Source: a virus. From it: a stretch of 64,000 nucleotides of DNA. Of the stretch, positions 39,681-58,568 are shown piece by piece (positions within the stretch are counted from its first letter, which is position 1; each line of letters starts with the position of its first letter). Position numbers and translations under genes: made by a program. The stretch covers positions 33,278 through 97,277 of the IMG/VR virus record IMGVR_UViG_3300034104_004920. One strand, given 5' to 3'. A model generated the notes under the pieces. It worked only from the letters and a program-made list of their open reading frames with translations. It was not told the DNA's origin and did not search any database.

Positions 39681-39767
39681 ACCATATCTATAACCACAAA
39701 GGACTCGAACCTCATTTCTAGAATAGTTCCAAACTACCAGAGCGACTGGCTGTGGTTATAGATATGG
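39681..39767 (-). ncRNA. inverted-repeat-closed tRNA-like RNA element
   Basis: A perfect 17-bp inverted repeat (39681-39697 with 39751-39767) closes a 53-nt loop that carries a T-arm-like GGTTCGAGTCC, a CCAG/CTGG mini-stem and a TAGTT/AACTA pair. The 5' arm starts with the CCA end of the tRNA-Thr gene, so the two overlap by three bases. It is not a normal tRNA: the anticodon arm cannot be placed. Confidence 0.6.
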
Positions 39768-39839
39768 TGCCGCATGAGGGATTCGAACTCTCGACCTACC
39801 GCTTACAAGGCGGTTGCTCTACCACTGAGCTAAAACGGC
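39765..39839 (-). tRNA. tRNA-Thr (TGT)
   Basis: 75 nt including encoded CCA. Acceptor GCCGTTT/..GCGGC, D arm AGCTCAGTGGTAGAGC, anticodon loop CTTGTAA, T arm AGTTCGAATCCCT-type. Confidence 0.95.
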
Positions 39840-39950: not shown

Positions 39951-40037
39951 GGCATTTTATTAGGGTAGCAAGTGGTACGATAACCGTCGCAAGTGCTTAC
40001 TCGACGTACATCACATGAGCTACCCTAATAAAATGCC
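39951..40037 (-). ncRNA. inverted-repeat-closed RNA element next to tmRNA
   Basis: Perfect 19-bp inverted repeat (39951-39969 with 40019-40037) enclosing 49 nt with inner stems GTACG/CGTAC and CGTCG/CGACG. Its 5' arm overlaps the 3' hairpin of the tmRNA gene. Confidence 0.6.
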
Positions 40038-40065
40038 ACGTGATTTGATAACAAGGACACGTGGC
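40035..40065 (-). terminator. tmRNA 3' hairpin/terminator
   Basis: 8-bp stem GCCACGTG (40058-40065 with 40035-40042) followed on the minus strand by ATTTTATT. Confidence 0.7.
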
Positions 40066-40089
40066 GAAAACCCTGGCTCAGCTAGTTTT

Positions 40090-40122
40090 TCAGGCTGCTA
40101 GAGCAAATACCTCATCGTTGGC
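40090..40122 (-). CDS. tmRNA tag peptide ANDEVFALAA
   Basis: Ten codons and TGA inside the tmRNA coding piece. The end -ALAA is the usual ClpXP/ClpAP degradation signal; the start ANDE matches known proteobacterial tags. Confidence 0.92.
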   Translation of the reverse strand, partial: ANDEVFALAA

Positions 40123-40376
40123 ATTTATTTTTGTTTTGCTGTTTCGGCCAGGAAACTCCCAACCCTACGGCTTTCGCATTGCCGAGCTGTCCATTTCGTT
40201 ACTCATTGCCCCGTCGAAACCAGGTCAGGCCCATCAAAAGCATACTAAGCGCACACGCAAACTCCTACAACTTCCGTCATCTAAGCTTGAGGCCTTAAGG
40301 TGTTAAGTATGCTTTTGGTGGACCTGGGCGGAATCGAACCGCCGTCCGGAACACTTTTCTCTCTACTTCATACAGC

Positions 40377-40411
40377 CATATTTAATTTTTCAGATATACT
40401 CTGAAAAATTA
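40377..40411 (-). terminator. hairpin between protein gene and tmRNA acceptor piece
   Basis: AATTTTTCAGA pairs with TCTGAAAAATT across the stop of the gene at 40390. It lacks a T-run, so it may be a processing stem rather than a terminator. Confidence 0.45.
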
Positions 40412-40662
40412 ATCTTCATGCGTTCTGGAACGAACTCACGATAGTTATTTACCACGTCATATTCTTGGTAAATCTTCATTAGAGCAGCTTGAAACTCCTC
40501 CAGTGCTTTGTTGTACGCTGCGGCAAACTGTGCTTGTTCATCAGCCTCCAGTTCGCTAACATCAATGCAGGCCATTTTGTCAGTTGGATTGTTGAGCACA
40601 AGAGCTTCACGGTTAGAAACCTTGTTATTACGATCCACATATTCAAAGTCAATGAACTTCAA
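40390..40662 (-). CDS. hypothetical protein upstream of tmRNA
   Basis: 90 residues from a TTG start with ggag eight bases upstream, downstream of a consensus promoter. Alpha/beta: FIDFEYVDRNNKVSNREALV then acidic helix ELEADEQAQFAAAYNKALEE. Probably on the same transcript as the tmRNA. Function unknown. Confidence 0.65.
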   Translation of the reverse strand: MKFIDFEYVDRNNKVSNREALVLNNPTDKMACIDVSELEADEQAQFAAAYNKALEEFQAALMKIYQEYDVVNNYREFVPERMKINFSEYI

Positions 40663-48863: not shown

Positions 48864-48966
48864 TGGTAGGAGAGGTGGGAATCGAACCCACATTACTCCG
48901 CCTTATCTAGACGGTGCTCTACGAGTTTATAAGGCTCGCCCTTAGGCCAATATTAGCAACTCTCCC
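48864..48966 (-). tRNA. aberrant tRNA-Ile-like gene (GAT) with enlarged D arm
   Basis: 103 nt with canonical acceptor (GGGAGAG/CTCTCCT), T arm (GTGGG TTCGATT CCCAC) and encoded CCA. The anticodon stem CCGTC/GGCGG holds TAGATAA (A at position 33 instead of U). The segment between acceptor and anticodon arm is about 45 nt instead of 19, with a TAAGG/CCTTA hairpin. A normal tRNA-Ile lies 220 bp upstream, so this may be a decayed or repurposed copy. Confidence 0.65.
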
Positions 48967-50265: not shown

Positions 50266-50341
50266 TGGTGGAGGATATCGGACTCGAACCGATGACTCCC
50301 TGCTTGCAAAGCAGGTGCTCTCCCAGCTGAGCTAATCCCCC
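50266..50341 (-). tRNA. tRNA-Ala (TGC)
   Basis: 76 nt, CCA encoded. Loop TTTGCAA on CCTGC/GCAGG. The acceptor shows a G at position 3 against the T-strand, consistent with alanine identity. Confidence 0.95.
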
Positions 50342-50348
50342 ATAATAA

Positions 50349-50376
50349 CTTTGATATGGCTGACGCCATATCAAAA
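50349..50376 (-). ncRNA. 11-bp processing hairpin between tRNA-Pro and tRNA-Ala
   Basis: Perfect stem TTTGATATGGC/GCCATATCAAA with TGAC loop and no T-run; likely a precursor processing stem. Confidence 0.55.
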
Positions 50377-50381
50377 CTATT

Positions 50382-50461
50382 TGGTCTGAGTGAGAGGATT
50401 CGAACCTCTGGCCTCCGAGTTCCAAGCTCGGCCGTCTAACCTGGCTGACAATACACTCAGA
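50382..50461 (-). tRNA. tRNA-Pro (TGG)
   Basis: 80 nt, CCA encoded. Loop CTTGGAA on CCGAG/CTCGG; acceptor TCTGAGT/ACTCAGA. Confidence 0.94.
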
Positions 50462-50760: not shown

Positions 50761-50836
50761 TGGTTGCGGTGCCCTGGAGTCGAACCAGGTTTCTCTGGCT
50801 TATGAGGCCAGCGGATTGCCATCTTCCTCGCCCGCT
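50761..50836 (-). tRNA. tRNA with CAT anticodon, initiator-like
   Basis: About 76 nt ending CGCAACCA as in initiator tRNAs; position 1 is probably unpaired and the acceptor has a bulged A. Loop CTCATAA on CTGGC/GCCAG. It could be tRNA-fMet or a lysidine-modified tRNA-Ile2; sequence alone does not decide. Confidence 0.75.
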
Positions 50837-56164: not shown

Positions 56165-56195
56165 AAAAACAAAAAGCCCACGAAAGTGGGCTTTG
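56165..56195 (-). terminator. intrinsic terminator of the large RNA
   Basis: Stem 56173-56181 with 56186-56194 on a four-base loop, then TTTTTGTTTTT on the minus strand. Confidence 0.9.
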
Positions 56196-57083: not shown

Positions 57084-57098
57084 GTCTAAATTTTTATA

Positions 57099-57195
57099 CC
57101 ATAGTTCAACACACTAGCGGCGTGATAAGATCAGAGCCATCTCGTTTAAAGGTTGCTATTACTGAGCAAACCTCCACTAATGTGTTGAACTATGG
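57099..57195 (-). ncRNA. long-stem RNA element, copy 1
   Basis: 22-bp stem with G:U pairs (57099-57120 with 57174-57195) enclosing two hairpins with 7-nt loops (AGGTT-TGCT/AGCA-ACCT, AGAT/ATCT). Confidence 0.7.
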
Positions 57196-57266
57196 CGGCA
57201 GTGTTGCTGCCTCAGGAATCCCGGCCCTCAGTGCTAAGAGAACACCTACATGCCACCCTACTCTTA

Positions 57267-57336
57267 CCATAGTTCAACACACTTCCCAACCTAACCCGGG
57301 ATGCTGTTTGTACATTAGAAATGTGTTGAACTATGG
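57267..57336 (-). ncRNA. long-stem RNA element, copy 2
   Basis: Same outer stem sequence as copy 1 over 15 bp, extended to 19 bp (57267-57285 with 57318-57336); shorter, different interior containing CTAA/TTAG. Confidence 0.7.
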
Positions 57337-57530
57337 CAACGCCCCCTAAAGCGTAGCATAGTGTCTTGTACCAGGACGACGATCCCGCTGTATCTTAATA
57401 GAGGATAGTACTATTCTACAGCGGCATAGTACTATTTTTCGCCTTGTTGCACTGTACAATCTAGGGAATGATTGTACGTCGTGTGGCACCTCAGCTCGAG
57501 GGTTCATAAGAACCTCGGTGTTATGGTAGC

Positions 57531-57671
57531 AGGGTTCGAACCTGCAGTTGAATAGTCTGTCGCACTAGCTATTCTGGTCAGGTTTTGCCATGAGTGCGAG
57601 TCCTGCATCTTAATGCAGACGACTGTCCGTATAGGCTTTTCCTCGACCGTGTTCTCCGATTTTCACCATAC
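57531..57671 (-). ncRNA. tRNA-like RNA with T arm and long interior
   Basis: A perfect T arm GCAGG TTCGAAC CCTGC is followed by TACCATA, which pairs with TATGGTA 125 nt upstream, as an acceptor stem would. The interior (about 110 nt) holds TGCAT/ATGCA and GAATAG/CTATTC hairpins, not a normal cloverleaf. No CCA. Confidence 0.5.
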
Positions 57672-57857
57672 CATAGTTGTCCAGACCCGAGTGGAGACGT
57701 CTGAACCTTTCTATCTCATTCCACCATTAGACCCGTTAACTAGAGGTCAGCTAGATCCAAGATAAAGTGGAGTACTTGGACGTTTGTGTTGATCCACTAT
57801 CAGACCATTTGAACCTAGCGGTCGGCTAGGGTTTGAGTACAAGAGTTATGATTTTTA

Positions 57858-57966
57858 CCATATTTCAACACACTGCTGCGGCCGCAGACTACCGAGTACA
57901 TAACGCACGGAGGAGCAACCCTTGCCGATCTGCTGTACTGACTCGTCACAATGTGCTGAAATATAG
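57858..57966 (-). ncRNA. long-stem RNA element, copy 3
   Basis: Outer stem 57858-57874 with 57950-57966, in which one G:C pair of copies 1-2 is replaced by T:A and one A:U by G:U. Interior with TGC/GCA, GCAA/TTGC and CGAGT..GTACA/TGTACTCG stems. Confidence 0.7.
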
Positions 57967-57974
57967 CGACCCTT

Positions 57975-58072
57975 TGTAGGCAGGATTCGAACCTGCAAGT
58001 GGCTTCTACCACCACCGGCCCCAATGCGGGCCTATGTTTACCAGTTTCCATCACTACGGGTCCTCGGAGTCA
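57975..58072 (-). ncRNA. tRNA-like RNA, class II-like, non-canonical
   Basis: T arm GCAGG TTCGAAT CCTGC, variable-arm-like GTGG/CCAC, anticodon-like stem GGCC/GGCC, and an acceptor split as GACCC+GTAG against CTAC+AAA+GGGTC with a bulge. No CCA and no clear anticodon; may be a decayed tRNA-Leu or a mimic. Confidence 0.45.
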
Positions 58073-58109
58073 TGACTTCCGAGTATGGTTGAGGGTAGCT
58101 ACTCCTCTA

Positions 58110-58182
58110 CCATATTTCAACACACTGCTGAACAATCGTCAGTCTTCCTAAACAATCGTTAGGATCAATGTGCTGAAATATG
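58110..58182 (-). ncRNA. long-stem RNA element, copy 4
   Basis: Outer stem 58110-58126 with 58166-58182 (same T:A version as copy 3). Inside, two hairpins, TCCTAA/TTAGGA and CTGA/TCAG, carry the identical 7-nt loop CGATTGT. Confidence 0.75.
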
Positions 58183-58266
58183 CCCCCAACTCGTCAATTT
58201 AGGGTAGGGCTTCAACAGCTCATCAAGGAACAAATCCCACTGTTTACAAGCCGTTGCCATGATATT

Positions 58267-58295
58267 ATTATAATATGTTTAGAACATCATTTCAA
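58267..58295 (-). promoter_or_regulatory. sigma70-type promoter for the long-stem RNA cluster
   Basis: Minus-strand TTGAAA (58295-58290), 17 bp, TATAAT (58272-58267), between tRNA-Tyr and the RNA elements. Confidence 0.8.
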
Positions 58296-58309: not shown

Positions 58310-58396
58310 TGGTGGAAGCGGTAGGAATCGAACCTACGGTGTTTCTCTTGTCACTGATTTACAGTCAGCTGCCTTCGCCGCTCAGCACACACTTCC
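58310..58396 (-). tRNA. tRNA-Tyr (GTA)
   Basis: 87 nt class II; loop CTGTAAA on GCTGA/TCAGT; CCA encoded. Confidence 0.95.
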
Positions 58397-58399
58397 GTT

Positions 58400-58484
58400 T
58401 GGTACCCTCGGCCGGACTCGAACCGGCATGATGTTACTCGAGAGATTTTAAGTCTCTTGTGTCTACCGTTTCCACCACAAGGGC
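58400..58484 (-). tRNA. tRNA-Leu (TAA)
   Basis: 85 nt class II; loop CTTAAAA on AGAGA/TCTCT; acceptor GCCCTTG/CGAGGGT; CCA encoded. Confidence 0.95.
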
Positions 58485-58492
58485 AATGATAC

Positions 58493-58568
58493 TGGTACCT
58501 CTAGGGGGAGTCGAACCCCTCGTTTCCGCCTTGAAAGGGCAGCGTCCTAACCATTAGACGATAGAGGC
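58493..58568 (-). tRNA. tRNA-Glu (TTC)
   Basis: 76 nt; loop CTTTCAA on CTGCC/GGCGG; acceptor GCCTCTA/TAGAGGT; CCA encoded. First tRNA after the promoter at 58605. Confidence 0.95.

Follow-up and report, generated by a model that had tools for sequence, protein, structure and literature searches.

Phages hold large tRNA arrays for reasons that are still an open question, as is the role of the extra RNAs found in them. Two described RNA families, GOLLD and ROOL, are located near phage tRNA islands (PMC12286853), and in T4 the small stable species 1 and 2 RNAs (rnaC and rnaD) lie directly behind phage tRNAs. The tRNAs themselves are targets of immunity. AriB, the nuclease of PARIS, cuts tRNA-Lys(UUU) and tRNA-Thr(UGU), with tRNA-Asn(GUU) as a secondary target, and the T5 versions of the Lys, Thr and Asn tRNAs inhibit PARIS (PMC12409363). 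RloC prefers tRNA-Glu and also cuts tRNA-Lys and a tRNA-Gln species (CUG), while PrrC cuts tRNA-Lys (PMC2610378).

Here we describe a family of viral RNA hairpins, often placed on tRNA 3' ends, that is previously undescribed in the Rfam matches listed and in the open-licence papers searched; an earlier description elsewhere is possible. The starting point was a 64 kb stretch (the window) of a 97 kb virus record whose DNA polymerase is about 49% identical to those of T5/BF23-group phages. Below, L025, L055 and the like are locus labels of the analysed set, in which L317 is T4.

Four elements in the window and their family

The original prediction was of four copies of a long-stemmed RNA with compensatory base changes, and all four are present (Table 1). 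Folded on the minus strand, their outer stems measure 15-22 bp and their z values against shuffled sequences are -7.7, -7.0, -3.7 and -7.1, none of 200 shuffles being as good. Every tRNA in the window also lies on the minus strand. Folding of the plus strand was ruled out, since the A-C mismatches that E3 and E4 show there are G-U pairs on the minus strand only.

Table 1. Positions of the elements and neighbouring features in the window
Feature	Position	Strand	Basis and details
Element E4, stem CATATTTCAGCACATT / AGTGTGTTGAAATATG	58109..58184	-	Pattern and folding; interior 40 nt
Element E3, stem GCTATATTTCAGCACATT / AGTGTGTTGAAATATGGT	57857..57967	-	Folding; interior 75 nt
Element E2, stem CCATAGTTCAACACATT / AGTGTGTTGAACTATGG	57264..57339	-	Pattern and folding; interior 36 nt
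Element E1, stem GCCATAGTTCAACACATT / AGTGTGTTGAACTATGGT	57098..57196	-	Pattern and folding; interior 63 nt
RNA unit between E4 and E3	57968..58108	-	90-92% conserved in L025, L041, L048
RNA units between E3 and E2	57340..57856	-	Sequence comparison
RNA unit between E2 and E1	57197..57263	-	3' minihelix GGCAG-CAACA-CTGCC-GCCA
Near-consensus sigma-70 promoter, TTGAAA-17-TATAAT	58267..58295	-	11/12 consensus match; just upstream of array
Terminator-like hairpin and T run	56173..56194	-	Far end of ORF-poor region
tRNA-Glu, tRNA-Leu, tRNA-Tyr	58310..58568	-	Directly upstream of array; all three without CCA-masking hairpins
Fifth element, arms ACCATATCTATAACCACA / TGTGGTTATAGATATGGT	39682..39768	-	On CCA of tRNA-Thr(UGU); z -6.9
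tRNA-Thr(UGU)	39765..39839	-	Intact; N73-CCA tail paired in fifth element

The interiors of the four elements differ, as had been noted, and this proved to be the essential property of the elements. That of E4 folds into two small hairpins and recurs in five further contexts. Each of its loops is ACGAUUGU, in which CGAUUG can pair with itself through G-U, making kissing loops or dimers possible. The flanks of E3 hold another interior in L025 (6168-6246), the E2 interior is also found in L041 and L053, and that of E1 occurs in L025, L041, L048 and L053 with different arms or flanks.

Between the hairpins lie further RNA units. The one between E4 and E3 contains a tRNA-like part (57972-58060) with T-arm GCAGGTTCGAATCCTGC and the end CTACAAAGGGTCGCTA at the E3 arm. 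From E3 to E2 there is a conserved unit ending in a T-arm (57522-57675), closed by the pairs TATGGTA/TACCATA, as well as a unit with the end ACGCTTTAGGGGGCGT-TGCCA. Relatives of the unit between E2 and E1 in L041, L145, L148 and L154 have compensated stems (GCCAG/CTGGC). We also observed, in L264, L284, L285, L288 and L053, conserved tRNA-like units ending in CCACAATGGRTYRMYA at an element arm; acceptor, D-arm and T-arm are present in them and an anticodon arm is apparently absent.

The array had been credited with a promoter of its own, which holds as a consensus match, and it occupies an ORF-poor stretch of about 2 kb from that promoter to the terminator-like hairpin. Such a stretch could be imagined as one large ornate RNA of the GOLLD/ROOL kind, a cage-forming transcript of 2 kb in which the arms are internal helices, and the presence of those RNAs near phage tRNA islands (PMC12286853), together with a GOLLD RNA directly before an element in L025, would fit. 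This reading is very unlikely, however: the window has no Rfam match to GOLLD or ROOL (none in the element region even at E <= 10), and elsewhere the elements also stand singly on tRNAs, in shuffled order and with shuffled neighbours. GOLLD is a neighbour in one array, not a relative of the elements. In that array (L025:2411-2870, minus strand; 225 bits) it has a tRNA inside and lies directly before the hairpin element at 2272-2404. Elements in L161 and L289 likewise seem to follow 3' ends that resemble those of GOLLD.

In agreement with the prediction that no known family has this form, none of the Rfam gathering-score matches listed for the window and 15 related loci lies on an element. The matches listed comprise only tRNA, tmRNA, one GOLLD and one group I intron, the last (L145:13185-13378, minus strand) lying within an array near elements. 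Blastn of element-bearing regions against cultured phages returned tRNA matches only, or none.

A gapped stem pattern led to further viral contigs, in which as many as four copies were present among the matches listed, whereas a relaxed stem pattern matched nowhere in 257 Gb of genomes from bacteria and archaea, which serves as a chance control and is a sign of a viral family. (A scan of viral contigs with a single 15-mer arm gave chance matches for the most part.) In 316 loci, most of them fetched by stem patterns from the viral contig matches listed, a mechanical finder recognised 374 elements in 206 loci, or 314 unique ones once nested and identical elements were taken out; the family in viruses is at least this large. 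Its consensus is ACCATATTnnARCACATT-[interior]-AGTGTGYTnnAATATGGT. The conservation of the core letters is partly imposed, since RCATT/AGTG was a requirement of the finder and the patterns that retrieved most loci fixed C75 to the core. An invariant core ACATT/AGTG was thus rejected as a universal trait; elements without it exist.

The arms are kept by compensatory change, that is, by selection for pairing. Within the window G-C is exchanged for U-A. In the 166 distinct arm pairs, each of the four Watson-Crick pairs is seen at positions 9-12, where pairing is 88-100% canonical against 43-78% expected from column shuffles. Column shuffles ignore relatedness, although counts of relatives affect the variety of pair types less. 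Randomly re-paired arms mostly have 1-4 mismatches, compared with 0-1 in true partners. A search for homologues whose two arms diverge independently therefore left the original prediction of a structured RNA under selection for pairing intact. That prediction did not extend to the strand, the association with tRNA 3' ends, the masking of CCA, the exchangeable interiors, a fifth element or the size of the family.

Pairing of the tRNA 3' tail

The stem of the hairpin continues the acceptor stem of a tRNA, or of a unit with a CCA-like end, such that N73-C-C-A is paired. Exactly at A76 of a tRNA called by ARAGORN begin 114 of the 314 elements, their left arm opening with the discriminator and CCA. 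When elements are aligned on the core, a T-loop stands at the place expected for a tRNA in 116 and a complete T-stem in 103. The acceptor partner of element-linked tRNAs is mostly found 63-67 nt upstream, which ruled out permuted tRNAs with a downstream partner. Overall, 96% of elements lie within 1 kb of a tRNA on the same strand, against 33% of random positions.

Pairing of A76 and C75 was fixed by the search pattern. At the positions left free in tRNA-linked elements, C74 is paired in 92% and N73 in 82%, and pairing then falls to 45% at N72 and 25% at N71. Since pairing reaches N73 and stops at N72, the whole single-stranded NCCA tail is masked. Charging of such a tRNA should be hindered unless the hairpin is removed. 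More than half of the elements follow RNA units that are not tRNAs; these mostly end in RCCA, or else in RCTA or RTCA with a changed or G-U partner.

Masking was also scored independently of any arm pattern, by asking, for each of 2657 tRNAs, whether an arm further downstream can pair with its CCA. Scores of at least 11 were reached by 250 tRNAs and of at least 13 by 229, forming a clear second mode, while shuffled trailers gave 0 of 2657 at 11 or above. Because 80 of the 250 masking hairpins lack the RCATT core, the principle is wider than the arm sequence. None of the 40 tRNAs of T4, PA5oct and BF23 carries a masking hairpin at a score of at least 10.

One of these 80 is the fifth element of the window, whose interior is predicted by folding to be a three-armed cloverleaf without an anticodon and with the 3' T-arm GAGGTTCGAGTCCTT. 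The tRNA-Thr that bears it adjoins a permuted tmRNA (39999-40425, minus strand; 131 bits), and a second permuted tmRNA occurs at L126 13913-14302. Elsewhere in the window, at 50341-50384 (minus strand), the hairpin that pairs the CCA of tRNA-Pro(UGG) is shorter and imperfect (score 12.6) and extends up to the start of tRNA-Ala, and hairpins of about 180 nt stand on tRNA-Pro in L056, L058, L060 and L204. Two Rfam tRNAs of the window, at 50765-50835 and 48867-48966 (minus strand), were not called by ARAGORN.

One function to imagine for such a hairpin is in the maturation or control of the tRNA 3' end. The NCCA would be masked, and the tRNA kept inactive or shielded, until the stem was cut by a double-strand-specific endonuclease or by one of the phage, the interior being a freely variable spacer. 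We consider this reading unlikely, if a serious rival. It would account for pairing of exactly the four tail nucleotides up to N72, for the conservation of stems and not of interiors, and for the frequent cases in which a hairpin takes up all the room between neighbouring tRNAs, the second of which begins between 5 nt before and 12 nt after the right arm. It does not account for the elements behind non-tRNA units, leaves the anticodon bias described below unexplained, and sits poorly with interiors that are not free spacers, as they fall into conserved families common to unrelated arrays, at least one of them with covariation.

Exchangeable interiors

The interiors amount to 285 distinct sequences in about 155 families, mostly 28-125 nt long. 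The same interior is seen with different arms and flanks, and identical flanks with different interiors. The stem is kept while the interior is replaced wholesale between near-identical arrays: in the clearest swaps (L121/L315, L173/L270, L184/L261 and, twice, L167/L226) flanks that are 94-100% identical enclose interiors unrelated in sequence and length. Empty and filled sites also occur (L204/L263, L060/L067 and others), an empty site consisting of the tRNA CCA and then a few mostly A/T bases.

These swaps and paired sites are what would be expected of a selfish, MITE-like hairpin cassette that brings the phage no benefit and spreads through viral tRNA arrays by recombining at its arms and at the 3' ends of tRNAs. 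Presence and absence in close relatives point the same way: L055, which is 96-97% identical to the window over most of the region, is without the block of E4, unit and E3, and its E2 and E1 are fused. Yet the long-term compensatory evolution of the arms requires selection on the RNA, the anticodon bias is found with unrelated arm types too, no target duplication was seen at the inspected sites, and the 257 Gb of prokaryote genomes held no match. Nor is there, among the many interior families, the single conserved, trans-mobilised interior of a MITE. A purely selfish cassette, though likewise a serious rival, is thus decidedly unlikely.

Several interiors bear signs of being RNAs in their own right. 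In one family, four divergent members show nine pairs with two-sided changes, and two other families show two such pair changes each. Across families, predicted stability is barely above that of shuffles (mean z -0.45). A T-arm is present in 22 interiors, against a mean of 1.6 and a maximum of 5 in shuffles, and is clear in only 14 of the 155 families; a tRNA-like character is thus evident for some interiors but not for most. One interior family (GCCGAACAGAC..CCGAUGAG) resembles the core strings of a hammerhead but is without stem III, and was rejected as a small ribozyme; besides the group I intron, no ribozyme was among the Rfam matches listed.

Anticodon bias and comparison with known systems

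The masking hairpins are not spread evenly over tRNAs. Counted over tRNA clusters at 85% identity, a hairpin is present on 56 of 130 clusters with UUN anticodons and on 62 of 1043 others (odds ratio 12, p 3e-27), with an odds ratio of 6 for U34 clusters (p 2e-16) and of 7 for UUN among hairpins with unrelated arm types (p 3e-8); these p-values overstate the certainty, as the clusters come from element-enriched loci and some share descent. Lys(UUU) (23/42), Glu(UUC) (24/45) and Thr(UGU) (11/41) clusters bear hairpins, as do Leu(UAG) (9/39), Leu(UAA) (9/43) and Gln(UUG) (9/43). Few or none are on Lys(CUU) (0/12), Thr(GGU) (0/22), Met (1/102), Asp (0/45) or His (0/34), and tRNA-Asn(GUU) is not enriched. 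Confounding by gap size was ruled out, since the bias stays at fixed gap size: among tRNAs with a gap of 40-120 nt behind them, the hairpin is on 73% of UUN tRNAs and 14% of others. U72 was rejected as the cause, since within an isotype the tRNAs with and without a hairpin show no consistent difference. Loci fetched by the UvdE protein instead of the hairpin yielded no more than 10 hairpins, of which 4 were on tRNA-Pro, too small a number for an independent check of the bias.

The anticodons that bear hairpins overlap the targets of tRNA-cutting immunity, and masking is concentrated on these defence targets. This overlap and the rapid exchange of interiors suggest an arms race. Judging from sequence patterns, we propose, with a probability of about 0.38, that the elements are exchangeable RNA cassettes on tRNAs that may act as decoys or inhibitors against tRNA-targeting defence. 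The hairpin would be transcribed together with the tRNA array and then persist as a stable RNA, either left in place or excised. The conserved arms could provide a common scaffold and a processing handle, and might also serve as short homologies for the exchange of interiors between phages. The interiors, of which some are anticodon-less and tRNA-like, may be decoys or inhibitors of host enzymes that attack tRNA, and their exchange would track changes in those enzymes. The broader notion of RNA-only gene cassettes, drawn from a shared pool of payloads, framed by a standard stem and carried on the tRNAs that anticodon nucleases attack as an adaptable counter-defence, we regard as somewhat unlikely.

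The anticodon correlation is by itself no proof of a decoy role, and several observations count against it. Leu tRNAs are enriched and no defence target is documented for them in this analysis; tRNA-Asn(GUU), the secondary AriB target, has hairpins on 4 of 44 clusters, and the Gln target of RloC is the CUG species. The T-arm is confined to few families, more than half of the elements are on non-tRNA units, and the interiors are hardly more stable than shuffles. The expected hindrance to charging of a tRNA with a masked CCA also speaks against it.

Whatever their function, the elements provide a widespread and precisely defined component of tRNA arrays that follows a strict rule (N73-CCA paired and nothing further), hundreds of interchangeable RNAs, and an anticodon bias pointing to tRNA-cleaving immunity. 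If the counter-defence function is true, they offer RNA-based anti-defence parts in large supply; if it is false, they still represent a previously undescribed means by which tRNA 3' ends are masked and probably controlled.

The likeness to the stable RNAs of T4 that had been suggested is a loose one. Position is shared, rnaD starting 2 nt after tRNA-Arg, and rnaC (L317:10909-11047, minus strand) ends in the T-arm CCGGGTTCGAATCCCGG, comparable to the window unit at 57522-57675. Because of that T-arm, rnaC resembles the units between the hairpins and not the hairpins. The common arms are absent from rnaC and rnaD, no exchangeable interior was seen in them, the T4 tRNAs are without a CCA-masking hairpin and reach a hairpin score of at most 7.3, and the arm pattern is not above chance in T4. 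GOLLD and ROOL, too, are structured RNAs of phages that occur within tRNA arrays or close by, but they are several hundred nt long with a conserved fold. The defence-evading Lys, Thr and Asn tRNAs of T5 come from a related phage type and overlap in anticodon, yet they have no such 3' hairpins, and neither does BF23, which is closely related to T5. Permuted tmRNA and anticodon-less tRNA-like RNAs recall those interiors that are T-arm cloverleaves without an anticodon, although here a long stem encloses the interior and leaves no CCA end free. Finally, integron attC cassettes also combine hairpin-forming arms with exchangeable content; in the elements described here, by contrast, that content is no coding cassette but a short, non-coding interior within the hairpin, carried on tRNAs and under selection on the RNA strand.
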